NCBI GenBank assembly: GCA_003194485.1 | Contig: PQXD01000001.1 | Coordinates: forward strand, 198,671-231,478 | DNA length: 32,808 bases | Origin: Deltaproteobacteria bacterium | GTDB taxonomy: Bacteria > Desulfobacterota > Dissulfuribacteria > Dissulfuribacterales > UBA3076 | Reading direction: 5' to 3' | In this document: piece by piece, positions 775 through 32,808 of the stretch | How the letters are laid out: each line of letters opens with the position of its first letter | Position numbering within the stretch: the first letter of the stretch is position 1 | Program-made: the position numbers and the translations under genes | Notes under the pieces: generated by a model | Seen by the model: only the letters and a program-made list of their open reading frames with translations | Database searches by the model: none | Told to the model about the DNA's origin: nothing

Positions 775-1281
775 ATGGCAACCGAGGCATACAACGGCGG
801 CGGATGGATAGCTACCAAATTGGAGTGGCTGATCAACTGGGGACGGAAAAGATCACCATGGCCTCTTCCGTATGGTACTGCCTGTTGTGGCATTGAGATG
901 ATGTGTGCCCTGGCCGCAGGTTACGATATGGCGAGATTCGGGGCGGAGCGACCCAGCTTTTCACCTCGTCAGGCAGATGTGCTGATACAGGCAGGGACCA
1001 TAACCATGAAGATGGCCCCTGTTTTCAAGAAGATATATGACCAGATGGCTGAGCCTAAATGTGTTATTTCCATGGGTGCCTGTGCCTGCAGTGGGGGTGT
1101 TTTCAGGACCTATTCCACGCTTCAGGGCATAGACAAGCTCGTACCTGTGGATATTTACATTCCGGGGTGTCCTCCCAGGCCTGAGGCCCTGTTGCAGGCC
1201 TTGTTGATGTTTATTAAAAAGACTGAGAAGAGTCATCCGATCATACATAAGAAGTACTCTGACTTGTTGGTGGGTACATAA
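775..1281 (+). CDS. nuoB: NADH-quinone oxidoreductase subunit B (cluster N2)
   Basis: This 168-aa peripheral-arm subunit binds the terminal [4Fe-4S] cluster N2, which reduces quinone. The ligands are visible: the tandem pair C37-C38 in [10 protein letters not shown]103 in GACACSGG and C132 in PGCPPRPE. The length is typical for a short bacterial NuoB. G-rich sequence at 762-768 provides a ribosome-binding site. The gene lies between nuoA and nuoC, two bases before nuoC. There is nothing abnormal in the cluster-binding residues, so the subunit should be functional. In a complex without NuoEFG it still receives electrons through NuoI. Confidence 0.96.
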
Positions 1282-1283
1282 TC

Positions 1284-1850
1284 ATGGATCTCAAGAAGAG
1301 AGTGGAACAGTGTCTCGGGCCTGAAAGCCTTGTTGTGGCCATGACCGAATGTCAAGGCGATGTGAGCGTAGAGGTCCCCAAGAGGAGACTGCTCGAAGCA
1401 ATGCGCCTTTTGCGGGACACTCCGGATCTAGGTTTTAATTTCCTTAGTGACGTGTTCGGGGTGGATAACCTCGACCTGAATAAGCCCAAGAAAAAGCCCA
1501 AGAAGGCAGAAGAAGGCGAGGGTGCTGAGGCAGAAGAACCGAAAGAGAAAGGGCCGCTCCCGCCACGCTTTGAAGTGGTTTACCTGTTGCTTTGCCTTGA
1601 ACGAAATGAGCGTCTGCAGGTGAAGGTGCGCGTGTCAGAGGATGATATGGAGGTGGACAGCCTGACTTCCATGTGGAAGGCCGCAACCTGGCCCGAACGG
1701 GAGGCGTTTGACATGTATGGCGTACGCTTTAAAGGTCATCCCAATCTCAAGAGACTCCTGATGTGGGACGATTTTCCGGCCCACCCGCTTCGCAAGGACT
1801 ATCCCTTGGAAGGGCAGGGGGAAGAGCGTCACCTGATATACGAAGATTAG
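1284..1850 (+). CDS. nuoC: NADH-quinone oxidoreductase subunit C with charged insert
   Basis: This is the 188-aa 30-kDa peripheral-arm subunit, separate from NuoD (the two are fused in E. coli). The family signature REAFDMYGVRFKGHPNLKRL and the DFPAHPLRKDYPL block are present near the C-terminus. Residues about 66-94 form an unusual Lys/Glu/Ala-rich low-complexity segment between the N-terminal fold and the FEVVY strand, where ordinary NuoC proteins have a short turn. It probably forms a flexible, charged loop on the surface. The gene starts two bases after nuoB ends and its stop lies five bases before the nuoD ATG. The insert resembles the NuoI tail in composition, which is noted separately. 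Confidence 0.94.
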   Translation: MDLKKRVEQCLGPESLVVAMTECQGDVSVEVPKRRLLEAMRLLRDTPDLGFNFLSDVFGVDNLDLNKPKKKPKKAEEGEGAEAEEPKEKGPLPPRFEVVYLLLCLERNERLQVKVRVSEDDMEVDSLTSMWKAATWPEREAFDMYGVRFKGHPNLKRLLMWDDFPAHPLRKDYPLEGQGEERHLIYED

Positions 1851-1855
1851 GAGAA

Positions 1856-3001
1856 ATGAAGGTGAATCAGAATCCTACTCCTCAGACCGGTCACGAAACA
1901 GGTGACTATGTAACTGTTAATATCGGCCCTTCTCATCCGGCCATGCACGGTACTCTCCGTGTAATTACTCTGACAGACGGAGAGTACATAATTAAGGCCG
2001 ACCCAGAGATAGGATATCTACACCGTGGCGTGGAGAAGCTGGGCGAAAACCTTACCTATCATCAATTCATTCCTATTACTGACAGGCTCAATTACTGTTC
2101 CGCCATTCCCAACAATGTCTCATACGAGATGGCCGTTGAGAAGTTGATGGGGATCGAGGTACCTGAGAAGGCTCAGCTTATCCGGGTAATCATGATGGAA
2201 CTGGCCAGGATCGCAGATCACCAGGTCTGCGTGGGGATCCTTGGCGTGGATTTAGGGGCCTTTACGCCCTTCTTCTATCTCATCATCCAGCGTGAGGAGA
2301 TCTACGAGATATTTGAGTGGTTCAATGGGGCAAGGCTGACCAATACCTTTGGCCGCATAGGCGGAGTGGATGCCGATCTGCCTGATGACTTCGAGGAGAG
2401 GTGGGAAGAGCTCAAGCCCAATGTGCGAAAGGCCAACGAAGAAACTGAAAAGCTCCTCACTCACAACCGCATCTGGATGGATCGTACGATAGGAGTCAGT
2501 GCTTTTTCTGCAGAAGACGCTCTGAACTGGGGCTTTACAGGCCCTTGTCTCAGGGCGTGCGGCGTCAAGAGAGACCTTCGGAAGGACGAGCCATACTGCA
2601 TGTATGACAAATTTGACTTTGAAGTGCCAGTAGGAAAGAACGGCGATGTATTTGATCGTTATAAGGTACGTATGATCGAGATGGAGCAATCGATCAGGAT
2701 TATTGACCAGGCTTACAAGCTATACAAGGAGATGCCTGCAGACGCCCCTCTTATGGCAAGGGTGCCCAAGACCATCAAGCCCCCGGCAGGCGAAGTATAT
2801 AGTGCTCTTGAGTCTCCCAACGGGGAGTTGGGTTTCTTTGTAAAAAGCGATGGTTCCGCCAATCCTTATAGAATCAGGATAAGGCCTCCATGCTATATGA
2901 TCTATCAGGCCTTTCCTGAGTTGGTTAAGGGGGAGCTGATAGCCGACCTGATTGCCTGTCTCAGTAGTCTTAACGTTATTGCCGGCGAGTTGGACCGGTA
3001 A
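1856..3001 (+). CDS. nuoD: NADH-quinone oxidoreductase subunit D
   Basis: This 381-aa 49-kDa subunit forms the quinone-binding pocket together with NuoB and NuoH. GPSHPAMHGTLR (24-35), GYLHRGVEK and FIPITDRLNY (71-80) are the classical motifs, and the His of the HPAMHG loop and Tyr80 are the expected quinone contacts. The C-terminus ends in LDR as usual. The frame is open further upstream within nuoC, but AGGAG at 1849-1853 favours ATG 1856. That spacing is tight, so GTG 1862 is an alternative start two residues later. The next gene, nuoH, follows directly. Assignment is secure. Confidence 0.95.
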   Translation: MKVNQNPTPQTGHETGDYVTVNIGPSHPAMHGTLRVITLTDGEYIIKADPEIGYLHRGVEKLGENLTYHQFIPITDRLNYCSAIPNNVSYEMAVEKLMGIEVPEKAQLIRVIMMELARIADHQVCVGILGVDLGAFTPFFYLIIQREEIYEIFEWFNGARLTNTFGRIGGVDADLPDDFEERWEELKPNVRKANEETEKLLTHNRIWMDRTIGVSAFSAEDALNWGFTGPCLRACGVKRDLRKDEPYCMYDKFDFEVPVGKNGDVFDRYKVRMIEMEQSIRIIDQAYKLYKEMPADAPLMARVPKTIKPPAGEVYSALESPNGELGFFVKSDGSANPYRIRIRPPCYMIYQAFPELVKGELIADLIACLSSLNVIAGELDR

Positions 3002-3015
3002 GGAGGCTGATGCCC

Positions 3016-4056
3016 ATGGATGACTGGCTGATTGCGATTATTAAGGTAGTTTGCATCTGGGTATGGGTATTGCTCATAGCCGTGGTCATGACCTGGGTGG
3101 AAAGGCGTGGTGCAGCTATGATACAGGACAGGCCGGGTCCCAACCGCGCCGGTCCTTTCGGATTGTTCCAGCCCATAGCGGACGGAATCAAGCTCTTCAC
3201 CAAGGAAGAAATAATACCTGCAAGATCCCAGAAGCTCCTCTATATCCTGGGTCCTTTGCTTTTTTCTCTTCCGGCCTTTTCGGCTTATGCGGTTGTGCCT
3301 TTTGGAGACAAGATCATTCTTGGAGGCAAGGAGATAATACTCCAGGTCTCAGATGTAAATATCGGATTTCTTTTCATATTGGCCATTGGTTCCATGGCGG
3401 TCTACGGTATAATACTGGGCGGCTGGGGCTCTACCAACAAATATTCGATCCTTGGAGGTCTGAGATCTACTGCCCAGATGATTTCATATGAAGTACCCCT
3501 GGGGCTGTCTCTGCTGGCTGTGGTGTTCGTATACGGTACCTTCAGCCTCAGGGAGATCTCTCTTGCCCAGCAGGGCACTTTTTTGGGATTTCTCCCAAAC
3601 TGGGGGATATTCAAGCAGCCTCTGGGATTTATTCTGTTTATTGTGGCTGCCTATGCGGAGGCCAACCGGGTGCCGTTTGACTTGCCGGAGGCGGAAAGTG
3701 AAATTGTCGCAGGCTACCATACGGAATATGGCTCAATGCGACTGGGGCTTTATCTGTTCGGGGAGTATGTAAACCTGGTAACGATATCCGGCGTGATTGT
3801 CGCCCTGTATTTTGGCTCCTGGCATTTACCGTATATTAACTTAGGCGCATATCTCGGGCCCGTGCTCTGGGGGATAGTCTCTTTTTGCATATTTTTCCTG
3901 AAGGTATCGTTCTTCCTGTGGCTGTTTGTGTGGGTCAGGTGGACATTGCCTCGGTTCAGGTATGATCAGGTTATGGGTCTGGGGTGGAAGGCGTTGATTC
4001 CTCTTGCTTTGTTCAATATCTTTATTACCGCGCTGTTTATTCAGCTTACGGTCTAG
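3016..4056 (+). CDS. nuoH: NADH-quinone oxidoreductase subunit H
   Basis: This is a membrane subunit of about 346 aa with eight predicted helices. It forms the quinone channel and its link to the proton-pumping arm. VERRGAAMIQDRPGPNRAG, the YAEANRVPFDLPEAESE segment of the conserved cytosolic loop, and EYGSMRLGLYLFGEY are diagnostic. The Shine-Dalgarno AAGGAGG (3000-3006) overlaps the nuoD stop. It is too close to ATG 3010 but well spaced from ATG 3016, so 3016 is chosen; the longer form would add only two residues. The conserved Glu-rich loop is intact. The gene is followed 12 bases later by nuoI. Confidence 0.95.
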   Translation: MDDWLIAIIKVVCIWVWVLLIAVVMTWVERRGAAMIQDRPGPNRAGPFGLFQPIADGIKLFTKEEIIPARSQKLLYILGPLLFSLPAFSAYAVVPFGDKIILGGKEIILQVSDVNIGFLFILAIGSMAVYGIILGGWGSTNKYSILGGLRSTAQMISYEVPLGLSLLAVVFVYGTFSLREISLAQQGTFLGFLPNWGIFKQPLGFILFIVAAYAEANRVPFDLPEAESEIVAGYHTEYGSMRLGLYLFGEYVNLVTISGVIVALYFGSWHLPYINLGAYLGPVLWGIVSFCIFFLKVSFFLWLFVWVRWTLPRFRYDQVMGLGWKALIPLALFNIFITALFIQLTV

Positions 4057-4068
4057 TCGGAGCACATT

Positions 4069-4782
4069 ATGGCCAAACCGGTTGTCAAAAAGGAATATAC
4101 CCTGGGTGAACGGATCTATCTGTGGGAGATCCTTAAGGGTTTGAGGCTGACGTGGAGACACTTTGTGTTTAATGTAAGGGCCTCGTTCAGGCCTGGGCCC
4201 CATACGATTCCAACGTGCTGGCAGTACCCGGAGGATCGCACCAGAGAAATATCTCCTGTCTTCCGCGGCGAACATATGCTGCAGCGGGACGATAAGGGCA
4301 GGGAGAAGTGCATTGCGTGCGGGATGTGCGCAAAGATCTGTCCGGCCAAGTGTATCACCATAAAGAAGGGCAAGCGAGAGGAGGGCGAGGAAGATAAGTA
4401 TGCCGCCAAGACATATCCTGCATCCTTTGAAGTAGACCTCCTGCGGTGCATCTTCTGCGGTTTTTGCCAGGAGGTATGCCCCAAGCAGGCCATTGTCTTG
4501 AGCCAGAATTTCGAGCTTGCCAGGTATACCAGAGAGGAATGTATTCTGGATAAACGCAGACTGCTCGCAAATTATCGAAAGGCCAAGGAAGAGGGCAGGC
4601 TCAGGCCGCCAAGGAAGCCTGTTCCAGTTGTTCCTGCTCCGCCTAAGCCGGAGAAGGATAAAAAGGCCGAGGGTGCCGAGGCCAAGAAAGGCAAGGCTGC
4701 GGTCGCAGGCAAGGCCAAGAAGAAGCCGATTGCAAAGAAGAAGGCCGCCGAGAAGCCTGAAGGCGCTGAGAAGGCGGAATAA
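4069..4782 (+). CDS. nuoI: NADH-quinone oxidoreductase subunit I with Lys/Ala-rich tail
   Basis: This 237-aa subunit has two ferredoxin-type [4Fe-4S] sites that pass electrons to NuoB. Site 1 uses C81, C84, C87 and C91 and site 2 uses C127, C130, C133 and C137, both in the canonical C-x2-C-x2-C-x3-C-P form. The core ends near residue 180, the usual end of the family. About 57 residues follow that are almost only Lys, Ala, Glu, Pro and Gly (PKPEKDKKAEGAEAKKGKAA and similar). This histone-H1-like basic tail is rare in NuoI. In a complex lacking NuoEFG it could dock an acidic electron donor such as ferredoxin, but that is inference. A GGAG motif lies at 4059-4062. Confidence 0.94.
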   Translation: MAKPVVKKEYTLGERIYLWEILKGLRLTWRHFVFNVRASFRPGPHTIPTCWQYPEDRTREISPVFRGEHMLQRDDKGREKCIACGMCAKICPAKCITIKKGKREEGEEDKYAAKTYPASFEVDLLRCIFCGFCQEVCPKQAIVLSQNFELARYTREECILDKRRLLANYRKAKEEGRLRPPRKPVPVVPAPPKPEKDKKAEGAEAKKGKAAVAGKAKKKPIAKKKAAEKPEGAEKAE

Positions 4783-4840
4783 ATCAGGTGCTGAAAGAAG
4801 GTTGTGCACCTTGTTTATCAGAGGAATCGGGGGGATTGAT

Positions 4841-5338
4841 ATGGATCTATATTTCTGGATATTTGCTGCTATTGCAGTGATTGCGGGGCTGTTTACCATA
4901 GCAGCAAGGGATGCATTGCCCAGTGCCATGGGGCTGCTTACGGTCTTTATTTCTCTTGCAAGCCTGTATCTCCATCTTCATGCCCCCCTGCTTGCTATTT
5001 TCCAGGTAGCCATTTATGCCGGGGCCATTCTGGTCCTGATAGTATTTGTCATAATGCTCCTCATGACCCCTGGCGAAAGGTTTGCAACTATCCAGGCCAA
5101 TGTCTCATACAGGATCTTCGGTGCAATACTTGGGTTGTGCCTGATTGGTTTGATGGCAGTCGGGACAAAGGGCGTGTCCGACATAATGGCTATGAAGGGA
5201 ATTTTTGAAGGATTCGGGAATCCATCTATTTTTGGCGATCTGTTTTTCCATGACTTTTTGCTTCATTTCGAGGTTGTATCCGTACTCCTGCTTGTAGCAA
5301 TGATTGGCGGGATCTATCTGTGTAAGAAGAAACTTTAA
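4841..5338 (+). CDS. nuoJ: NADH-quinone oxidoreductase subunit J
   Basis: This is a 165-aa membrane subunit with five helices. Its third helix contains the conserved VAIYAGAILVLIVFVIMLL-type segment with the pi-bulge seen in the family. The same frame is open from 4517 inside nuoI, but that upstream part has the composition of a frame shadow. ATG 4841, preceded by a G-rich stretch at about 4829-4834, gives the expected N-terminus MDLYFWIFA. A 58-base gap separates it from nuoI, and nuoK follows 11 bases after its stop. Confidence 0.94.
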   Translation: MDLYFWIFAAIAVIAGLFTIAARDALPSAMGLLTVFISLASLYLHLHAPLLAIFQVAIYAGAILVLIVFVIMLLMTPGERFATIQANVSYRIFGAILGLCLIGLMAVGTKGVSDIMAMKGIFEGFGNPSIFGDLFFHDFLLHFEVVSVLLLVAMIGGIYLCKKKL

Positions 5339-5349
5339 GAGAGGGCTGA

Positions 5350-5652
5350 ATGGCAACGCTCACACACTATATAGTTTTGTCATCAATACTCTTTGGCTTG
5401 GGGGCCATTGGCTTTTGTACCAGGAGAAATGCCTTGATCCTGTTTATGTCTATTGAGCTTATGCTCAATGCAGTAAATCTGATGATGGTGGCCTTTTCCA
5501 ATTTTAGGGCCGATATGGCAGGACAGGTTATGGTGCTTTTTATCTTTGCGGTAGCTGCGGCTGAGGTTGCTGTGGGCCTTGCGATACTAATAGGCCTCTT
5601 CCGGCATGTGCGGGAGGTGGACATAACTAAGTTTAATGTCTTGAAATGGTAA
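5350..5652 (+). CDS. nuoK: NADH-quinone oxidoreductase subunit K
   Basis: This 100-aa subunit has three transmembrane helices and is related to the MnhC subunit of Mrp antiporters. Helix 2 carries the conserved membrane glutamate in [12 protein letters not shown], and helix 3 the second in [11 protein letters not shown]. Both take part in the proton path at the centre of the membrane arm. The length equals the family norm. A GAGGG ribosome-binding site lies just upstream of ATG 5350. A 68-base spacer separates it from nuoL and contains nothing I can recognise. Confidence 0.95.
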
Positions 5653-5720
5653 AGAATCTGTATTCACCTACTTCTGTCTTTTACTGCGCAAACAGCCTGT
5701 CTATGTAGGGAGAGCTATTC

Positions 5721-7697
5721 ATGGAAGGTTATCTGTTTCTCATACCACTTATACCTTTTACAGGATTTCTGATTAATGGCCTGTTGGGGCAAAGGATCGG
5801 GAGAGCCGGTGTTTACTGTATTGGCTGTTCCAGTATAGGTCTGGCCTTTCTGTTTTCCATTCTGGCCGTATACGAAATGGCATGCAGCCCGGCTGAAGAC
5901 AGGTTGCTGGTACAGGTTTTATGGAATTGGATGAGCATAGGCAATCTTAATATTGATATTTCCTTGATGATTGATCCGCTTTCCGCTGTAATGATTCTGG
6001 TAGTCACCGGCGTGAGCTTTGTTATTCATATATATAGTATGGGCTACATGGCACATGACGAGTCATATTGGAGGTTTTTTGCGTACCTGAATATGTTCGT
6101 CTTTTTCATGATAATGCTGGTCCTGGGTTCCAGCTATATAGTGATGTTTGTCGGCTGGGAAGGTGTAGGCCTTGCTTCATATCTCCTGATCGGTTTCTGG
6201 TACAAAGAGAACGTCAATGCGGATGCGGGCAAGAAGGCCTTTATTGTAAACAGGATCGGGGATTTCGGCTTTCTCCTGGGAATGTTCCTGATGTTCATTA
6301 CCTTTGGCTCTCTGTCTTATCTTGATGTATTTCCAAAGGCAGTTCACATGTATGAGCATGGGATGCTGGCCATGAACTCACCGGTCGTGATAGCCATATG
6401 CCTCCTGCTTTTCCTGGGGGCAACCGGAAAATCGGCACAGATCCCCTTGTTTGTCTGGCTTCCGGATGCCATGGCAGGTCCGACCCCGGTTTCGGCACTC
6501 ATCCATGCTGCCACCATGGTGACCGCCGGTGTCTATATGGTGGCAAGAACCAACATTCTCTATACGCTGGCACCTACCGCGTTACTGGTATTGGTATTGA
6601 TGTCAGCGGCCACTGCCTTTATAGCTGCAACGATCGGTATCCTGCAGAACGATATCAAGAGAGTCCTTGCATACTCTACGGTAAGCCAGCTTGGGTATAT
6701 GTTCATAGGTGTGAGTGTGGCCGCATACGGGGCAGGTATATTTCATCTCATGACCCATGCCTTTTTCAAGGCCTGCCTGTTCCTTTGCTCCGGCTCGGTC
6801 ATTCATGCCATGGGCGGGGACCAGGATATGAGGAGTATGGGAGGCCTTTGGAAGAAGGTTCCTATCACATATGTCACCATGCTTTTTGCCACCATAGCTA
6901 TTGCAGGTGTTCCTCCTTTTGCGGGGTTCTTCAGTAAGGATGAGATCTTGTGGAAGGCTTTCACGTTCCCGTATTATCCTCTTGTAGGTAAGATCGTCTG
7001 GTTTATCGGCGCTCTTGCTGCCGGAATAACGGCATTCTATATGTTCAGGCTCATTTTCATGACCTTCCACGGCAAGTTCCGCGGCACTGAGGAGCAGGCC
7101 CGTCATTTACATGAATCGCCATTAAGCATGACAGGTCCTCTCATGATTCTTGCTTTTGGGTCGGTATTCGGAGGCTGGCTGGGAATACCGCATCTGATAG
7201 GCAGCTACTTCGGCCATGTCCCCAATGTGCTCGAAAACTTCTTTGAGCCGGTATTTGAACACTCACATAAAATAATCGCTGCTTATGCAGGCGTACAGCA
7301 CTATTCCAGCTCTGTAGAGTGGATGCTTATGGCCGTTTCGGTGGCCATAGCCATTGGCGGTATTTCCCTGGCTTATCATATCTATATTCGTCGTGCTGAC
7401 GTACTTCCCGACAGGCTTGGCGAGACCTATTCCCTGTATCACAAGCTTGTCTATAACAAGTACTATGTTGACGAAATATACTACTATGTGGCTGTCCTTC
7501 CGTTTTATTATCTCTCAATGTTCTTATGGAAGGTCGTGGATGCGTTCTGTATCGACGGCGTAGGAGTAAATGGACAGGCATGGTGGGTACAGAGGGGATC
7601 AGGTGCTGTAAGGCTGGTCCAAAATGGTTATGTGCAGACCTACGGTGCATTTATGCTTCTTGGGCTTGTTGTAATGCTCTGGTTTTTCATTGTGTAA
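5721..7697 (+). CDS. nuoL: NADH-quinone oxidoreductase subunit L
   Basis: This 658-aa distal antiporter-like proton pump has about 16 transmembrane helices and a long C-terminal lateral helix. Diagnostic stretches are the GWEGVGLASYLLIGFWY region (TM5, with the essential Glu), FVWLPDAMAGPTPVSALIHAA around the TM7-8 broken helix, and DIKRVLAYSTVSQLGYM. The C-terminal region contains the VYNKYYVDEIYYY motif typical of NuoL before the last helix. Length is normal. GGGAGAG upstream of ATG 5721 is the ribosome-binding site. It is followed by an 85-base gap and then nuoM. Confidence 0.96.
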   Translation: MEGYLFLIPLIPFTGFLINGLLGQRIGRAGVYCIGCSSIGLAFLFSILAVYEMACSPAEDRLLVQVLWNWMSIGNLNIDISLMIDPLSAVMILVVTGVSFVIHIYSMGYMAHDESYWRFFAYLNMFVFFMIMLVLGSSYIVMFVGWEGVGLASYLLIGFWYKENVNADAGKKAFIVNRIGDFGFLLGMFLMFITFGSLSYLDVFPKAVHMYEHGMLAMNSPVVIAICLLLFLGATGKSAQIPLFVWLPDAMAGPTPVSALIHAATMVTAGVYMVARTNILYTLAPTALLVLVLMSAATAFIAATIGILQNDIKRVLAYSTVSQLGYMFIGVSVAAYGAGIFHLMTHAFFKACLFLCSGSVIHAMGGDQDMRSMGGLWKKVPITYVTMLFATIAIAGVPPFAGFFSKDEILWKAFTFPYYPLVGKIVWFIGALAAGITAFYMFRLIFMTFHGKFRGTEEQARHLHESPLSMTGPLMILAFGSVFGGWLGIPHLIGSYFGHVPNVLENFFEPVFEHSHKIIAAYAGVQHYSSSVEWMLMAVSVAIAIGGISLAYHIYIRRADVLPDRLGETYSLYHKLVYNKYYVDEIYYYVAVLPFYYLSMFLWKVVDAFCIDGVGVNGQAWWVQRGSGAVRLVQNGYVQTYGAFMLLGLVVMLWFFIV

Positions 7698-7782
7698 AAT
7701 CGGCTGGATTTGCATATATGGGACAGGGTCTGGAAAGAGCGGTTATGGAGTGCAACAAAATAAAAGGATCGAAGGGTAAATT

Positions 7783-9357
7783 ATGAATGCTCCCATATTA
7801 ACCTATGTAACCTTCTTACCTCTGTTGGGAGTGCTGGCTGTTCTCTTTATCCCGCAGCAGAGTGAATCAGGGAAGAATGCCATTCGCTGGGTATCAATGG
7901 TAATATCCACATTGGTGTTTATTGTTTCGCTGAGATTGTACTTTGGTTTTGACCCGGACATAGCAGGGTTCCAGTTCATAGAGAAATATACATGGATCCC
8001 CAGCTATGGAATCACATATTTTATGGGTCTGGATGGTCTTGCATTCTGGCTTGTGCTTTTGACTACCTTTCTTACTCCGATTACGATCCTTTCAACCTGG
8101 ACGGCCATTACAAAAAGGGTGAAGGAGTTCCAGGTATCAATGCTGGTCCTCGAGACAGCAATGCTGGGGACCTTTGTATCTCTGGATCTCTTTCTTTTCT
8201 ATGTGTTTTGGGAGCTCATGCTCATTCCGATGTACCTCATCATAGGTGTTTGGGGCGGGGAACGAAGGATTTACGCCGCAATCAAATTCTTCCTGTTTAC
8301 GGCAGTTGGATCGTTCCTCATGTTGGTGTGCATCATCGGCCTTGTTTATTTCCACCGCCAGGAAACCGGTGAGCTGACCTTCAACCTGCTCTCTTTATAC
8401 AATACGAATCTGGCAAGGACGTATGAAATACTATTCTTCGGCGCCTTTGCTCTGGCATTTGCAATCAAGGTCCCGATGTTTCCATTCCATACATGGTTGC
8501 CGGATGCCCATGTTGAGGCACCGACTGCCGGTTCAGTGATCCTGGCGGGCATTCTCCTGAAGATGGGTACCTATGGGTTTTTCCGGTTTGCAATGCCGCT
8601 TTTCCCTGAGGGGTCGGCTTTTTTTGCCCCGCTCATTATAGCCCTTGCGATAATAGGCATTATTTACGGGGCGATGGTGGCCATGGTGCAGCCGGATATA
8701 AAGAAACTGGTGGCGTATTCTTCCGTATCCCATCTTGGTTACTGCATGATCGGGCTTTATGTCTTGAACCGTCATGGTGTTGAGGGCTCGGTCCTCCAGA
8801 TGATCAACCACGGCATTTCAACCGGCGCCCTGTTCCTTCTTGTGGGCGTAGTCTATGAAAGACGCCATACCCGTTTGATTGCGGAATATGGAGGAATTTG
8901 CAGGCAGATGCCTGTTTATGCCTCTATCTTTTTCCTTATAACCCTGTCAAGTGTAGGGTTTCCTACTACTAACGGGTTTATTGGCGAGTTTCTTATCCTG
9001 TTAGGGGTCTTTGAAGTGAACAAGGTTGCTGCCGTGCTGGCAGCTACCGGTGTAATACTTGGTGCAGTTTATATGTTCTGGATGTATCAGAGGGTCTTTT
9101 ACGGCAGGATCTCAAACCCGAAGAACGAAAACCTTAAGGACTTGAACCTCAGGGAATTGGCCTATCTCCTTCCACTGGTTGCACTGGTATTCTGGATAGG
9201 CCTGTATCCCAATTTCTTCCTGAACAAGATGCACAGTTCCGCGGATCACTTTATCAGTCGGGTCAAGATATCTGCACCTGAGCTCCCTGGTTCGGCTGCA
9301 GGGCATCATGCCTCTGGTGACAAGACGCCTTTATATGTGAGTGCGGCTAAGGAGTGA
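7783..9357 (+). CDS. nuoM: NADH-quinone oxidoreductase subunit M
   Basis: This 524-aa antiporter-like pump has about 14 transmembrane helices. It contains [20 protein letters not shown] with the TM5 glutamate, [20 protein letters not shown] at TM7, and [20 protein letters not shown] at TM8. All residues expected for proton transfer in this family appear intact. The C-terminal 30 or so residues (after HFISRVK) are polar and poorly conserved. Its stop codon lies within the Shine-Dalgarno region of nuoN, so translation of the two is probably coupled. Confidence 0.96.
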
Positions 9358-9362
9358 TAAAT

Positions 9363-10910
9363 ATGAGCGACCTTGGATTTTCCTTTAGCCTGAGCCAGCT
9401 ATGGCAGGTAGCTGGGGGACAGATAATCCTTATTATTGCCGGCCTTGTGCTTATTTTTGTTGATCTTTGGCTATCAAGAAATAATAAAGGGTCAGACCAT
9501 GTAATGACAATGGGTTGGCTCACTGTTTTAAGCTTTTTGGTCGCTTTGTGGTATATGACCGGCCATGAGTGGACACTAAACGAAATAGTGTTGATCGGGG
9601 TCTTCTCCACAGAGAAGTTTTCCGTATTCGTGTCGTGTGTAATATTGATGTCCGGCATATTTGCGAGCCTGATGAGTATAGGCTATTTGCGGAACAATCA
9701 ACTGGTCAGATCAGAATATTTCATCCTCCTTTTATTTGCAGTTTATGGCGCCATAGCCATGGTCCAGTCGGTTGACCTGCTCATGATGTTTATTGCCCTT
9801 GAGGTCATGTCCCTTTCGGTATATGTCCTGGCTGCGTTCCTGAAGAACGACAGGAGGTCACAGGAAGGGGCCCTGAAGTATTTCCTTCTCGGGAGTTTTG
9901 GGTCTGCGTTCTTCCTGTTCGGGGTTGCACTGATGTTCGGCCTGACCGGCACTGTCAATATCACAAAGATCGCTCAGGTGCTTGCCGCAGGTTCTCTTTT
10001 TGAGCATCCCGGGGTACTTGTTGCCATGGCGTTGCTCATGTCAGGACTGTTTTTCAAAATGGCCCTTGTACCATTCCATATGTGGACCCCGGATGTCTAT
10101 GAGGGCAGCCCTGCGGTTATAACCGGATTTATGGCCACGGCGGTGAAGGCCGGGGCCTTTGGGATATTTATCAAGCTCTTGAGCGTTACCTTTACCCCGA
10201 TTCTTGTACACAGCGGGCAACCCGAGTTCCAATCCACTGTCAACCTGGCGGCTTTGGCAGTCTACTGGAAACCCCTGTTGTGGTGGCTGGCCCTCATTAC
10301 CATGTTTATTGGCAACCTGGTTGCAGTATCCCAGCGGAATGTGAAACGCATGCTGGCCTATTCCTCCATAGCACATGCCGGATACATGGTCTTGGGGATC
10401 CTTGCAGCCAATGATGAAGGCCGTATGGGCGTGCTGTTCTATCTCTTTGCGTATACGCTGATGAATATGGGGGCCTTTGGCGTGCTTTATCTGCTGGATG
10501 GTCAGGAGGGTAAGGCCCAGACCCTGGAAGATTACCAGGGGTTGGGATTTAAGTATCCCGCTCTCAGCTTTCTGATGTCCCTTTTCCTGGTTTCCATGGC
10601 CGGGCTTCCTCCCACTGCCGGTTTTATCGGTAAGTTCTATTTGTTTGCAGCGGCCATAAAAGAAGGATACCTGCTCCTTGCCGCGCTGGGTATAATGACC
10701 TGTGTTATCGGGGCTTATTACTACCTGCGGGTGATATGGATGCTGTATATGATGGAGCCGTCCAGGGAGGTCGTGGCCGGCAGGGTTGGCTTTACTTCAA
10801 TGATAGCATTGATTGCCGCTGCCCTTGGAATCATGTATTTTGGGATATTACCAGAAGGGCTGGCACAAGTGGCTAACGTTGCCCAGCAAAGTCTTGCCAT
10901 GGTCTTCTAA
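9363..10910 (+). CDS. nuoN: NADH-quinone oxidoreductase subunit N
   Basis: This 515-aa antiporter-like pump nearest the quinone module is the last gene of the operon. Family features are LLMMFIALEVMSLSVYVLAA (TM5 Glu), MALVPFHMWTPDVYEGSP (TM7) and NVKRMLAYSSIAHAGYMVLG (TM8). The frame is open from GTG 9354, but ATG 9363 is better because AAGGAG (9349-9354), which overlaps the end of nuoM, lies 8 bases upstream. No nuoE, nuoF or nuoG follows; the next gene is unrelated and lies 116 bases on. No strong terminator is visible in that gap. Confidence 0.95.
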   Translation: MSDLGFSFSLSQLWQVAGGQIILIIAGLVLIFVDLWLSRNNKGSDHVMTMGWLTVLSFLVALWYMTGHEWTLNEIVLIGVFSTEKFSVFVSCVILMSGIFASLMSIGYLRNNQLVRSEYFILLLFAVYGAIAMVQSVDLLMMFIALEVMSLSVYVLAAFLKNDRRSQEGALKYFLLGSFGSAFFLFGVALMFGLTGTVNITKIAQVLAAGSLFEHPGVLVAMALLMSGLFFKMALVPFHMWTPDVYEGSPAVITGFMATAVKAGAFGIFIKLLSVTFTPILVHSGQPEFQSTVNLAALAVYWKPLLWWLALITMFIGNLVAVSQRNVKRMLAYSSIAHAGYMVLGILAANDEGRMGVLFYLFAYTLMNMGAFGVLYLLDGQEGKAQTLEDYQGLGFKYPALSFLMSLFLVSMAGLPPTAGFIGKFYLFAAAIKEGYLLLAALGIMTCVIGAYYYLRVIWMLYMMEPSREVVAGRVGFTSMIALIAAALGIMYFGILPEGLAQVANVAQQSLAMVF

Positions 10911-28254: not shown

Positions 28255-31200
28255 TTAAAATACGACCTCTTCGGTCTCTCCCTCTTTGAGTTCAAAATCC
28301 TTGTCTTTAACCCGGACCTGAATCGGCTTTGCCCTGCTCGAGAGGGCTGTAATCTTCAGCCTGTCGGAGGCAATGTCCAGATCCAGCCAGTGTCCCCGAT
28401 ATCGAAGATGAAAGTGCACCTGCCTTATCTCCCTGGGAAAGGATGGATTCAGGCGCAGCACGTCACCCTGTGCCTCCAGTCCTGTATAACCTCGCTGAAG
28501 CATATCCACGCAGCCGGCCATGGCTCCCAAATGAACACCTTCCCGTGTGGTGCCGCCCTGGATGTCGGCTATATCCGTTTTCAGGGCCTGGTTAAAGAAT
28601 TCCCACGAACGTTCCCTGTCCCGCCGGATGGCAACCCAGGAATGAATGATCCAGCTCAGGGACGAGCCGTTGGAGGTACGTTTCAGGTAGTAATCAATAT
28701 TTTTGGGTATGGTTTCATATTCAAAGGGATATCCCAGCTGGCTGAACAGCTTTTTCAGTTTCTCGGCGCTGAAAAGATAGAAGAGCATCAGGACATCGGC
28801 TTGTTTGGAGACCTTGTAGCGGTTTGTCGTGTCGTTTTCCGCCTCCAGGATCCGGTCCAGGCGCTGAATATTCCCGTATCTTTTCAGGTAACCCTCCCAG
28901 TCGAATTCCTCCAGGCGGCCATAACCCTCAAACTGGCTGATTATTCCGTCATCATGGAATGTCACCCGCATCTTGCGGCTCATCTCTTCCCATCTCTCCA
29001 TTTCTGTCTCTTTTATGTCAAGCTTTTGGTATAGCTGAATGAATTGCTCCTCGGGAAGGATGCGAGGCAGTTCAAGTGCACGGTTCATTACAAAGGCCAC
29101 CATAATGTTGGTGTATGCGTTGTTGTTCAGGCCCGGCTCATCTGCTCCTGGATAGCTGTCATGATATTCGTCCGGGCCCATGATGCCGCGGATCTCGTAC
29201 CGGTCAAGCTCCTGATTATATGTTGCTATACTGGCCCAAAAGCGGGCGATTTCCAGTATCATCTCACCGCCGTAAAAGGACAAAAATTCCAGGTCGCCGC
29301 TGATCTGCCAGTACTGCCATATATTGTAGACAATGGCGGCGTTTATATGACGCTGCCGGTGCGAGTGATCCGGGATCCATCGGCCTGACCTTGGGTTGAG
29401 ATGGATCTGCTGGGTTTCCTCTCTGCCGTTGCTTGCGCTCTGCCACGGATACATGGCTCCCTTGTAGCCCAGCCTGCGGGCGGCCCTCCGTGCCTCTTTG
29501 AGGCGGCGATAGCGATACATGAGCAGGCTTCGGGTAATCTGTGGGGCCCTGTAGTTAAGAAAGGGAAAAATAATCAGCTCGTCCCAAAAGATATGCCCGC
29601 GGTAGGCCTCGCCGTGCCATCCCCGTGAGGGTATCCCCACGTCGATGTCGATAGAGTGCATGGAAGAGCTTTGCAGAATATGGAAGCTGTACAAACGGAT
29701 GTTTCTTTGTATATGATGGTCATCAGAAGAGACGCTCAATTTCCCCTTGACGTCAAACCTGCGCCACAGGTGCTGCCAGGCAAGGACATGGGACCGGAGC
29801 AGACCGGAGAAGCTGCCGGCATCAGTGATTGCCTTCTCCGCCTCAAGGGAGCACTCAGAGATGGCCGGATCCCTGGAGGTGTACAATGAAACCGTCTTTT
29901 CTATGGTAATCCCTGTCCCTTTGGTAACCTCCACTGTAAATAGCTGGGCAACATAGGCCGGACTTTCCATTACGGTTCGTTTGAAAGCCAGTGGTTTTCC
30001 GTCCCGGAATATTTCCGTCCTTGCACCCATCGCAACGTGCAACCCGGACTGGCTGGTACGCACTTTCAAAAGCATTCTGTTTTCATCGATCAGTCTGCTT
30101 TCCACCGGCTCCAGATGCCTGTTGCTCAGACCTTTATAACGTTCTACGCCGGAATTGGTGACCCGGCCGTCCAGTGCAGAGCGAATCTCCAGTTTACCGC
30201 TCCAGTTTAACGGCGTAATGACCGTTTTCAGTGCAGCCACATGTTTATCGCCGATATGGACCAGCCGGCACTGGAGCAGTCTCGTTTCCCGGCCCTTCGT
30301 ATCCCTGAATCGCACCGTCCGGTGAAGCATCCCTCTTTTGATATCCAGATGCTGGCAATAGAAAAGGATGTCCACCGCCTTTAGATCAAACCATTCTTCA
30401 CCAGGGATATGGAAATTGAGGCAAAGCCAATTAGGCATATTGACCAGATCCTCGTTCTCTATGGTCCGGCCCGCTATTTTGGTCTTGAGGCGGTTGTAGC
30501 CGCCGGCCAGGTAGGTTCCGGGATAGTGGATATCGTCTGCATCCGCCTCCGGCCCTGTCCCCCGGGTACCGAAATAGCCGTTTCCCAGGGTGCACAGCGC
30601 CTCCCGCAGGCCTTCTTCTTTTGGATTGAAGCCCTCACAGGTCAGTGACCAGGCATTTCCATGTTCCAGCGCGGACTTCAGTTTGCACAGAAACATACGA
30701 ACCTGATCAGGAGATTTCAGTCTGAGCACGGCTTCAGTGGTCCGGGAATTTTCCCCCACCACAATGCCTATGCCTTGCCCGGCGAGGGCCTCAAAGGCGT
30801 CCTCATCCGTAATATCGTCTCCTATATAAAAGGGAAAGATCCCCGGACCGACAAAATTCAGGGTATCCAGAATCCAGGAAATCGCCTTTCCCTTGTCCCA
30901 GTCGATATCGGGCCTGAGTTCATAGACCTTCTTGCCCTCTGCCTTTCGAAGCCCTGAATAATGATCAGCCGCACGGTCTACAATTTTTTCCACCGAACCA
31001 GCGTGTTCGTCCCCGACATTACGGTAATGAACCGCAATGGTAAATTTCTTGCGTTCTACCTGGGCGCCTTTGATATCCGCAAGTTGCCGCTTCAGGTCTT
31101 CTTCGGCCTCATCAAGGACCGGGAGGAGCTTTATGGCCTCTTCATGCTCCATCTTTAGATCTCCCGGTCCTTTTATTTCAAAACCGTGGCTGCCGGCATA

Positions 31201-32202
31201 GCAGATGTTTTTGATACCTACCCGCTCTTTTACGTCTTTAAGGCCTCTTCCGCTTATTATCGCTAAAGGGCATTGGCCGGACAGACCGGCAAGCGTTTTT
31301 CGCATATCTTCGGACAGTACGGCATCCTCGGGATGGGAGACGATAGGGGTCAGTGTGCCGTCATAGTCGAGAAAAACGACCACTTCTTTGCCCCCTATCT
31401 GTTCCCTGATTTCCTCAAAGGCCTCCAGGGCATGGGGCAGGTCCTTCATATCAGCCGCCGTCTTTATTTCTGAAAGGTCCTGGACCACCATGTCGGCCCC
31501 TGCTTCTTTCAGCGCCTTTTCCTGCCGTGCCCGGTCGACTCCTATAACCAGGCCGAATCCCCCTTTGCGTCCGGCCTGGACACCTGAAACAGCATCCTCC
31601 ACCACCACGCACCTTTCAGGTTTAACCTTCAGCCGCCGGGCTGACTCCAAAAAGATGTCCGGCTCGGGTTTGCCTGTAAGGTCAAGGACCTCGGAGTCCA
31701 TCCCATCCACCTTTGCATCAAACAGATCTGTGATATTGGCCCTGTCAAGGATATCAGCACAGTTCCTGCTGGAAGAGACGATGGCGGTCTTAAAGCCCCT
31801 CTTTCTGAGCCTGCCTATCAAGTCTATGGTGGATTCATAGACCCGCACCCCTTCCATTTTCAGGCGCTTCAAGAACAACCGGTTTTTCCTGTTTCCCAGG
31901 CCGCAAACCGTTTCTTTGTCCGGTGAATCATCGGCATTGCCGTATGCAACCTCTATCCCGCGGGAGGCAAGAAAGCCCTTCACTCCTTCATGACGGGGCT
32001 TGCCGTCCACGTATTTACGGTAATCGGCACCGGAATCAAAAGGTTCAAATGTTTCGTCTTTACAGCGTTTTTTTAGTAATTCATCAAAGAGATCCTTCCA
32101 TGCAGCGGCATGGATACATGCTGTCCTGGTAACCACTCCGTCCAGATCAAAGACGACCGCATCATACCTGTCCCTGGAAATTTGATATCTCTTATTGCCC
32201 AT
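28255..32202 (-). CDS. OtsB1-like fusion: HAD phosphatase/mutase + trehalose-6-P phosphatase + GH65 phosphorylase
   Basis: This 1315-aa soluble protein has three domains. Residues about 12-250 form a beta-phosphoglucomutase-like HAD domain (D19 and D21 in VVFDLDGVV; GKPEPDIFL; EDAVSG). Residues about 272-510 form a trehalose-6-phosphate phosphatase domain (D279 and D281 in FLDYDGTLTPI; SGRG; GDDITDEDAF). Residues about 515-1315 form a GH65 domain like trehalose/kojibiose phosphorylases (GEAYRGHIFWDE, 864-875; catalytic Glu E1012 in IMGPDEYH). The order and size match M. tuberculosis OtsB1 (about 1327 aa). A plausible role is trehalose or disaccharide turnover with glucose phosphate release. 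AGGAAG supports ATG 32202. No trehalose synthase gene is adjacent. Confidence 0.9.
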   Translation of the reverse strand: MGNKRYQISRDRYDAVVFDLDGVVTRTACIHAAAWKDLFDELLKKRCKDETFEPFDSGADYRKYVDGKPRHEGVKGFLASRGIEVAYGNADDSPDKETVCGLGNRKNRLFLKRLKMEGVRVYESTIDLIGRLRKRGFKTAIVSSSRNCADILDRANITDLFDAKVDGMDSEVLDLTGKPEPDIFLESARRLKVKPERCVVVEDAVSGVQAGRKGGFGLVIGVDRARQEKALKEAGADMVVQDLSEIKTAADMKDLPHALEAFEEIREQIGGKEVVVFLDYDGTLTPIVSHPEDAVLSEDMRKTLAGLSGQCPLAIISGRGLKDVKERVGIKNICYAGSHGFEIKGPGDLKMEHEEAIKLLPVLDEAEEDLKRQLADIKGAQVERKKFTIAVHYRNVGDEHAGSVEKIVDRAADHYSGLRKAEGKKVYELRPDIDWDKGKAISWILDTLNFVGPGIFPFYIGDDITDEDAFEALAGQGIGIVVGENSRTTEAVLRLKSPDQVRMFLCKLKSALEHGNAWSLTCEGFNPKEEGLREALCTLGNGYFGTRGTGPEADADDIHYPGTYLAGGYNRLKTKIAGRTIENEDLVNMPNWLCLNFHIPGEEWFDLKAVDILFYCQHLDIKRGMLHRTVRFRDTKGRETRLLQCRLVHIGDKHVAALKTVITPLNWSGKLEIRSALDGRVTNSGVERYKGLSNRHLEPVESRLIDENRMLLKVRTSQSGLHVAMGARTEIFRDGKPLAFKRTVMESPAYVAQLFTVEVTKGTGITIEKTVSLYTSRDPAISECSLEAEKAITDAGSFSGLLRSHVLAWQHLWRRFDVKGKLSVSSDDHHIQRNIRLYSFHILQSSSMHSIDIDVGIPSRGWHGEAYRGHIFWDELIIFPFLNYRAPQITRSLLMYRYRRLKEARRAARRLGYKGAMYPWQSASNGREETQQIHLNPRSGRWIPDHSHRQRHINAAIVYNIWQYWQISGDLEFLSFYGGEMILEIARFWASIATYNQELDRYEIRGIMGPDEYHDSYPGADEPGLNNNAYTNIMVAFVMNRALELPRILPEEQFIQLYQKLDIKETEMERWEEMSRKMRVTFHDDGIISQFEGYGRLEEFDWEGYLKRYGNIQRLDRILEAENDTTNRYKVSKQADVLMLFYLFSAEKLKKLFSQLGYPFEYETIPKNIDYYLKRTSNGSSLSWIIHSWVAIRRDRERSWEFFNQALKTDIADIQGGTTREGVHLGAMAGCVDMLQRGYTGLEAQGDVLRLNPSFPREIRQVHFHLRYRGHWLDLDIASDRLKITALSSRAKPIQVRVKDKDFELKEGETEEVVF

Positions 32203-32512: not shown

Positions 32513-32683
32513 TCAATATTTCATCAACACCCCTCGGTATTCCCAATGTGTTCTTCTTAGAAAGACGATTTTGACCCCAAGCAGTCCCTGTCTGACATAA
32601 CGGCTGGCAGTCACCTTGGCGGAAGCCCTGCTGACCTCAAAGACCCTGGCAATCTCCTCATAACCGAAATACAATTTTTTAAT
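32513..32683 (-). pseudogene. Winged-helix regulator remnant broken by the insertion sequence
   Basis: On the minus strand, residues FGYEEIARVFEVSRASAKVT followed by SRYVRQGLL resemble the N-terminal winged helix of AbiEi-type antitoxin regulators. The frame ends in a stop at 32513 after only about 25 more residues, whereas such proteins are much longer, so it is truncated or frameshifted. Upstream (right), the frame runs into the insertion sequence at 32684, so the native start is lost or displaced. The AbiEi relationship rests on one short motif. Confidence 0.45.
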
Positions 32684-32808
32684 TTTATTTTTCCATGCGC
32701 CAGGTCTAAAACCTTCGCCTTTCAGGCGAAAGGCTTCAGCAGTTAAGGGATCGTGGTAAACTTGCTCATGGGAGGTTATCGCCATAAGCAAAGAATATCG
32801 CAAGGGGC
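32684..32808 (+). mobile_element. Second insertion sequence copy, cut by right edge
   Basis: These 125 bases are identical to 20654-20778. They include the left-end hairpin (32712-32733), the ribosome-binding site and the first 25 bases of tnpA from ATA 32784. It is inserted in the same orientation as the first copy, inside or beside the regulator remnant. The rest lies outside the window. Confidence 0.9.

Follow-up and report, generated by a model that had tools for sequence, protein, structure and literature searches.

A HAD-TPP-GH65 protein of a deltaproteobacterium is the only trehalose-6-phosphate phosphatase found in its genome and a probable node of trehalose metabolism

We analyzed a 32,808-nucleotide stretch of DNA (the window; positions given below without a locus label are those of the whole window) from a Deltaproteobacteria bacterium (contig PQXD01000001.1 of assembly GCA_003194485.1). 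Its minus strand encodes a protein, P0001, in which a beta-phosphoglucomutase-like HAD domain, a trehalose-6-phosphate phosphatase (TPP) domain and a GH65 domain are joined in one chain. We found that none of the three domains lacks its catalytic residues, that P0001 holds the only TPP found in its genome, and that the operonic TPP of related genomes is absent there. We suggest that P0001 is probably a single-chain node for trehalose and trehalose-6-phosphate (T6P) that replaces a stand-alone TPP and links the trehalose/T6P pool to glucose-6-phosphate (G6P). The TPP domain would hydrolyze T6P made by OtsA, which is encoded elsewhere in the genome, and would have taken the place of the stand-alone TPP from the treT-otsA operon. 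The GH65 domain would carry out reversible, inverting phosphorolysis between the trehalose (or T6P) pool and beta-glucose-1-phosphate (beta-G1P), and the HAD domain would interconvert beta-G1P and G6P. Acting together, the domains would carry out the last step of trehalose synthesis and let glucose units pass from the trehalose pool to G6P and back. The activity of each domain, the GH65 substrate, the overall direction of flux and possible channelling from site to site are predicted from comparisons of sequence and structure.

The genome supplies T6P phosphatase from a single gene. An earlier interpretation of the window made from its letters alone (the sequence-only reading) had proposed looking in the genome for otsA and a stand-alone otsB. 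In the 2.55 Mb draft, which is 97.4% complete, there is one OtsA, in the run DUF5752, TreT-like, OtsA (contig 19), and we found no TPP and no GH65 besides P0001, and no TreY. Since otsA is present and a stand-alone otsB is not, the fused TPP should be working here, and judging from this gene content it is very probably the T6P phosphatase of the host cell. This OtsA is less likely to be a glucosylglycerol-phosphate synthase: it scores 534 bits with TIGR02400 and 350 bits with TIGR02398, and reaches the cut-off of neither model. Among the 44 OtsA-bearing genomes with a HAD-TPP-GH65 set, fused or as adjacent genes (the module), the only TPP found was that of the module in 25.

Comparison with related genomes indicates what the fused TPP replaced. 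None of the 11 other genomes of the same order in our draw has the module. In nine of them, treT, a divergent TPP gene (~265 aa) and otsA lie together, with the TPP between treT and otsA (six scanned proteins scored 62-91 bits with PF02358; tblastn identified the rest). treT lies directly beside otsA, with no TPP between them, in the genome of P0001, in a sister metagenome-assembled genome (MAG; G297, module locus L003) and in a third relative (G324, module locus L044), and in all three the module holds the sole TPP. A Synergistaceae MAG with a TPP-GH65 module (G333, module locus L063) has a truncated TPP relic between treT and otsA (L208:1267-1600) that keeps the DYDGT and SGR motifs and has lost GDDxTDE; its sole full TPP is that of the module. 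In sampled treT-otsA pairs, which were taken from search lists and compared by p-values that ignore phylogeny, the operonic TPP was kept in 3/11 genomes with the module and in 17/20 others (Fisher p 0.004), or in 1/8 and 17/20 when genera were collapsed (p 0.0007). The absence of the operonic TPP from the host, its sister and the third relative, together with the relic, suggests that the fused TPP has probably taken over from the T6P phosphatase native to the cell, a difference from OtsB1 of Mycobacterium tuberculosis. The OtsA and TreT of the third relative are 88% and 87% identical to those of the host, but its module domains share only 52-57% identity with those of P0001 and are placed elsewhere in the tree. 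The simplest reading of this difference is lateral exchange of the module, followed by loss of the native TPP.

The domain assignments are firm. The sequence-only reading had described a 1315-aa chain with HAD, TPP and GH65 domains in the order of mycobacterial OtsB1, with three intact sites and in a host outside the Actinobacteria, and each of these points held (Table 1). The Pfam E-values exclude chance, and a plus-strand reading of 28255-32202 is ruled out by stops. A homologue in the sister MAG is 90% identical to P0001, and among named records a 'Deltaproteobacteria SeepSRB2' MAG is the nearest, so the host is not actinobacterial. The sister homologue is frameshifted at the position of P0001 residue 199/200 (L003:4060-4200), which could be a sequencing error or decay.

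The HAD domain has the catalytic set D19, D21, R70, S143, K178, E202 and D203, equivalent to D8/D10/R49/S114/K145/E169/D170 of beta-phosphoglucomutase. In a 58-row homologue alignment, D19 and D21 are aspartate in every homologue covering the site, and K178 and D203 are invariant. The domain passes the cut-off of the beta-phosphoglucomutase-family model TIGR02009 (NCBIfam; 162.9 bits vs 153.35). The catalytic set of the TPP domain (D279, D281, S317, R319, K385, D462, D463 and D466) is invariant in the same homologues, as are H339, H392, R394 and K437; HAD motifs I-IV of this domain are intact and TIGR00685 is passed with 182.4 bits (cut-off 68.05). The GH65 domain has the fold, catalytic acid and phosphate loop of an inverting phosphorylase. 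AlphaFold models were confident (predicted local distance difference test, pLDDT, 93.3 for GH65 and 92.7 for HAD-TPP), and a Foldseek search with them returned the same nearest structures as did sequence. For the HAD domain this is M. tuberculosis Rv3400 (8h5s; 43% identity, template modelling (TM) score 0.91 by target length), a stand-alone protein that is reportedly a beta-phosphoglucomutase. For the TPP domain it is M. tuberculosis OtsB2 (5gvx), a shorter protein without GH65; the match to it also takes in sequence preceding the TPP domain. For GH65 it is 9lb6 of Weissella ceti, a single GH65 domain.

Table 1. Features of P0001 in the window
Feature	Window positions	Strand	Basis
Whole ORF, 1315 aa	28255..32202	minus	ATG at 32202, stop 28255-28257; uninterrupted frame in genome too
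HAD domain, beta-phosphoglucomutase-like, residues 13-215	31558..32166	minus	PF00702 E 1.8e-25; TIGR02009 above cut-off; Rv3400 8h5s E 7e-58
HAD motif DLD, nucleophile D19 and acid/base D21	32140..32148	minus	alignment position
TPP domain, residues 277-496	30715..31374	minus	PF02358 E 6.5e-55; TIGR00685 above cut-off; OtsB2 5gvx E 1.9e-59
TPP motif DYD, nucleophile D279 and acid/base D281	31360..31368	minus	invariant, 58 homologues
TPP metal site DDITD, residues 462-466	30805..30819	minus	D462, D463, D466 invariant, 58 homologues
GH65 N-terminal domain, residues 523-777	29872..30636	minus	PF03636 E 1.2e-72
GH65 central catalytic domain, residues 839-1232	28507..29688	minus	PF03632 E 4e-128; model pLDDT 93.3
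GH65 acceptor loop E928-H952, including R951	29347..29421	minus	common to 9lb6 and Lactiplantibacillus GH65
GH65 general acid E1012	29167..29169	minus	invariant in 64 clade members
GH65 phosphate-binding loop GGTTREGVH, residues 1216-1224	28531..28557	minus	alignment
GH65 C-terminal domain, residues 1242-1305	28288..28479	minus	PF03633 E 7.9e-15

The module occurs with other trehalose pathways. In 297 genomes of the same phylum, OtsA, TreY or a TreT-like gene was present in 18/18 genomes with the module and in 129/279 without it (p 1.8e-6). The link was strongest with TreY (14/18 vs 41/279). It was weakest with OtsA (12/18 vs 108/279, p 0.025), and the module is thus poorly described as a strict partner of OtsA. 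Genes beside module loci include TreZ, TreY, OtsA, TreT-like and DUF5752, and at L050 DUF5752, TreT-like, TPP and GH65 genes form one run. The DUF5752 gene repeatedly stands first, before the TreT-like gene (L114:10479-11168, L050:4000-4641 and L026:4069-4749), and DUF5752 may be a component of the trehalose pathway.

Three observations weigh against P0001 as a node that receives T6P from OtsA and passes glucose units through a mutase. First, the HAD domain fails the strict beta-phosphoglucomutase equivalog TIGR01990 (105.7 vs 189.4 bits). Second, the p-values, both for loss of the operonic TPP and for the pathway links, take no account of common descent, and many of the genomes compared are drafts. 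Third, ten of 65 module genomes keep the TPP without OtsA or a TreT-like gene, and their T6P would have to come from elsewhere. Two of these ten are Vreelandella isolates, both with TreY; OtsA, TreT and TreY are all lacking in only 2/65. Uptake by a trehalose phosphotransferase system (PTS) was ruled out as the source, as PTS-IIBC-Tre was found in 0/15 genomes, including all ten. The obvious candidate is GH65 itself, if it can join beta-G1P to G6P. In other module genomes the TreT-like genes may also supply T6P, by analogy with TreT-related GT4 enzymes of Sulfolobus, which can be T6P synthases (PMC7688234).

These results bear on the substrate of the GH65 domain. The acceptor loop of GH65 enzymes sets acceptor specificity. 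P0001, 9lb6 (E 2e-134, TM 0.92, ~31-35% identity) and a Lactiplantibacillus GH65 encoded beside pgmB have in common the loop E..Q..HLNP.SG.W.PD.S..QRH, an insert YPG....G that follows the catalytic acid, and another that precedes KQAD. Kojibiose, glucosylglycerol and maltose-type GH65 enzymes lack this loop and these inserts; kojibiose phosphorylase (3wiq) and glucosylglycerol phosphorylase (4ktp) have the same fold and catalytic acid as P0001 but scored lower. At the loop position of R951, 57 of 64 clade members have R, 6 have H and 1 has F. As the GH65 of a lactic acid bacterium, 9lb6 is taken here to be T6P phosphorylase-like, although its substrate is given only by the inconsistent names of the deposit ('trehalose-6-phosphate hydrolase' and 'phosphatase'). 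Kinship to T6P phosphorylase (EC 2.4.1.216; characterized in Lactococcus as Q9CID5) was judged by proxy, from 9lb6 and the Lactiplantibacillus GH65. The likeness of the acceptor loop to that of 9lb6 suggests that GH65 may act on T6P and, overall, in the direction of synthesis. We consider trehalose and T6P about equally probable as substrates. If GH65 does act on T6P, a widespread trehalose route has been overlooked.

The sequence-only reading had proposed that P0001 is a complete recycling route in one polypeptide, running one way from T6P to trehalose, then to glucose and beta-G1P, and then to G6P, with GH65 as a trehalose phosphorylase (EC 2.4.1.64). It is partly supported: the architecture and intact sites on which it drew stand, while GH65 may instead act on T6P and towards synthesis. 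The proposal is a trehalose-specific, degradative version of the explanation that we prefer, and we regard it as possible and only tentatively so. It is consistent with the strong link of the module to TreY and TreT-like genes and its weak link to OtsA, and with the existence of HAD-GH65 pairs without TPP. However, the acceptor loop is of the 9lb6 type, and trehalose made and immediately degraded in one chain would be futile unless regulated.

Conversely, the chain could be a trehalose synthase that needs no nucleotide sugar. The HAD domain would convert G6P to beta-G1P, the GH65 domain, a T6P phosphorylase running in reverse, would join beta-G1P and G6P to form T6P, and the TPP would be the irreversible pulling step, giving trehalose from 2 G6P. 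The equilibrium of T6P phosphorylase is reported to favour T6P synthesis (PMC13121652). The likeness of GH65 to 9lb6 and to the lactic-acid-bacterial enzyme beside pgmB, the basic residue at R951 in 63/64 members and the ten genomes that keep TPP without OtsA, a TreT-like gene or a trehalose PTS all fit this alternative. Against it, the genome of P0001 has an OtsA able to make T6P, the near-universal presence of OtsA, TreT or TreY in module genomes fits turnover of trehalose from other routes, and the label of 9lb6 is inconsistent. We think it unlikely, though if true it would be a further route of trehalose biosynthesis across many phyla and a candidate for the ancestral function of OtsB1.

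It is very improbable that any domain survives only as a structural or regulatory remnant, as the HAD domain seemingly does in Mycobacteriales relatives of OtsB1, because all three keep their catalytic residues in P0001 and the multi-phylum set. In favour of such decay, the HAD domain is degenerate in actinobacterial homologues L149-L151 and in Rhodococcus sp. DK17, and the TPP nucleophile is gone from L151.

P0001, as a putative node replacing a stand-alone TPP, is best compared with OtsB1 (Rv2006) of M. tuberculosis and its Mycobacteriales relatives, which have the same three domains in the same order in one chain. OtsB1 (1327 aa; PMC11046441) has no assigned function (PMC11046441, PMC12090744); it is induced in carbon starvation and belongs to the DosR regulon (PMC12090744, PMC11046441), and a 2025 paper noted that its inactivity had been claimed without data (PMC12090744). 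M. tuberculosis has OtsB2 (391 aa) as its essential phosphatase (PMC11046441), in agreement with the earlier statement that the mycobacterial fusion is not the main one, whereas in the genome analyzed here the fusion is the sole TPP. L149-L151 keep the GH65 residues. The annotated OtsB of Rhodococcus sp. DK17 lacks the N-terminal catalytic half of HAD and has lost later HAD motifs, but its TPP is intact. P0001 represents the intact form of this architecture. The architecture is already known from OtsB1; the gene content of the host genome now bears on its function, the fusion being the only phosphatase found there for trehalose synthesis. Homologues with three intact sites that are the sole T6P phosphatase of their cells provide a tractable system for the function of the architecture, and the intact form predicts which activities may persist in Mycobacteriales relatives (TPP, GH65) and which may be gone (mutase). 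On plasmid pDK1 of Rhodococcus sp. DK17 (L177), the otsB1-type gene lies near genes for universal stress proteins, a response regulator and a GAF sensor kinase, a neighbourhood reminiscent of the DosR regulon.

The module is widespread. A genome scan gave 80 loci, in Desulfobacterota, Actinomycetota, Gemmatimonadota, Nitrospirota, Planctomycetota, Pseudomonadota, Myxococcota, Acidobacteriota, Chloroflexota, Verrucomicrobiota, Atribacterota and others, although not every MAG name may be reliable. The rarity outside Actinobacteria implied by the sequence-only reading was thus not confirmed. The commonest arrangement is a HAD-TPP chain with an adjoining GH65 gene; others are a single chain, a row of three neighbouring genes that keeps this order, HAD-GH65, and TPP with GH65. 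Two Desulfobacterales loci (L022:5166-8333 and L023:5980-9147) encode HAD-GH65 fusions without TPP, with otsA directly after. On a Paraburkholderia sabiae plasmid (L176:4995-8388), a GH65 gene overlaps a gene for a PfkB-family sugar kinase, not a mutase, and its acceptor loop has only partial likeness to the 9lb6 type.

In a tree of the joined domains, P0001 groups with the sister MAG, Desulfohalobiaceae and Actinomycetota MAGs. A phylogeny had been suggested earlier as a check for transfer. The closest homologues after the sister MAG include Actinomycetota MAGs. A single clade of all fused chains is rejected (p-AU 1e-8). This rules out a single origin and indicates that single-chain forms were gained or lost on several occasions. 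Grouping of the clade of P0001 with L148/L149, mycobacterial-like stand-ins for the M. tuberculosis chain, was weakly rejected (p 0.037). The fusion event is probably not shared with the mycobacterial chain, though the domains are homologous.

A scan for promoters and terminators near the fusion gene gave no excess over shuffled sequences. Upstream of the gene, on the same strand, is a ~90-aa frame (32514-32775, minus) that looks helix-turn-helix-like by eye. At the other end of the window, 775-10910 (plus) holds an ordinary series of complex I (NADH dehydrogenase) subunit genes, identified from their translations alone.

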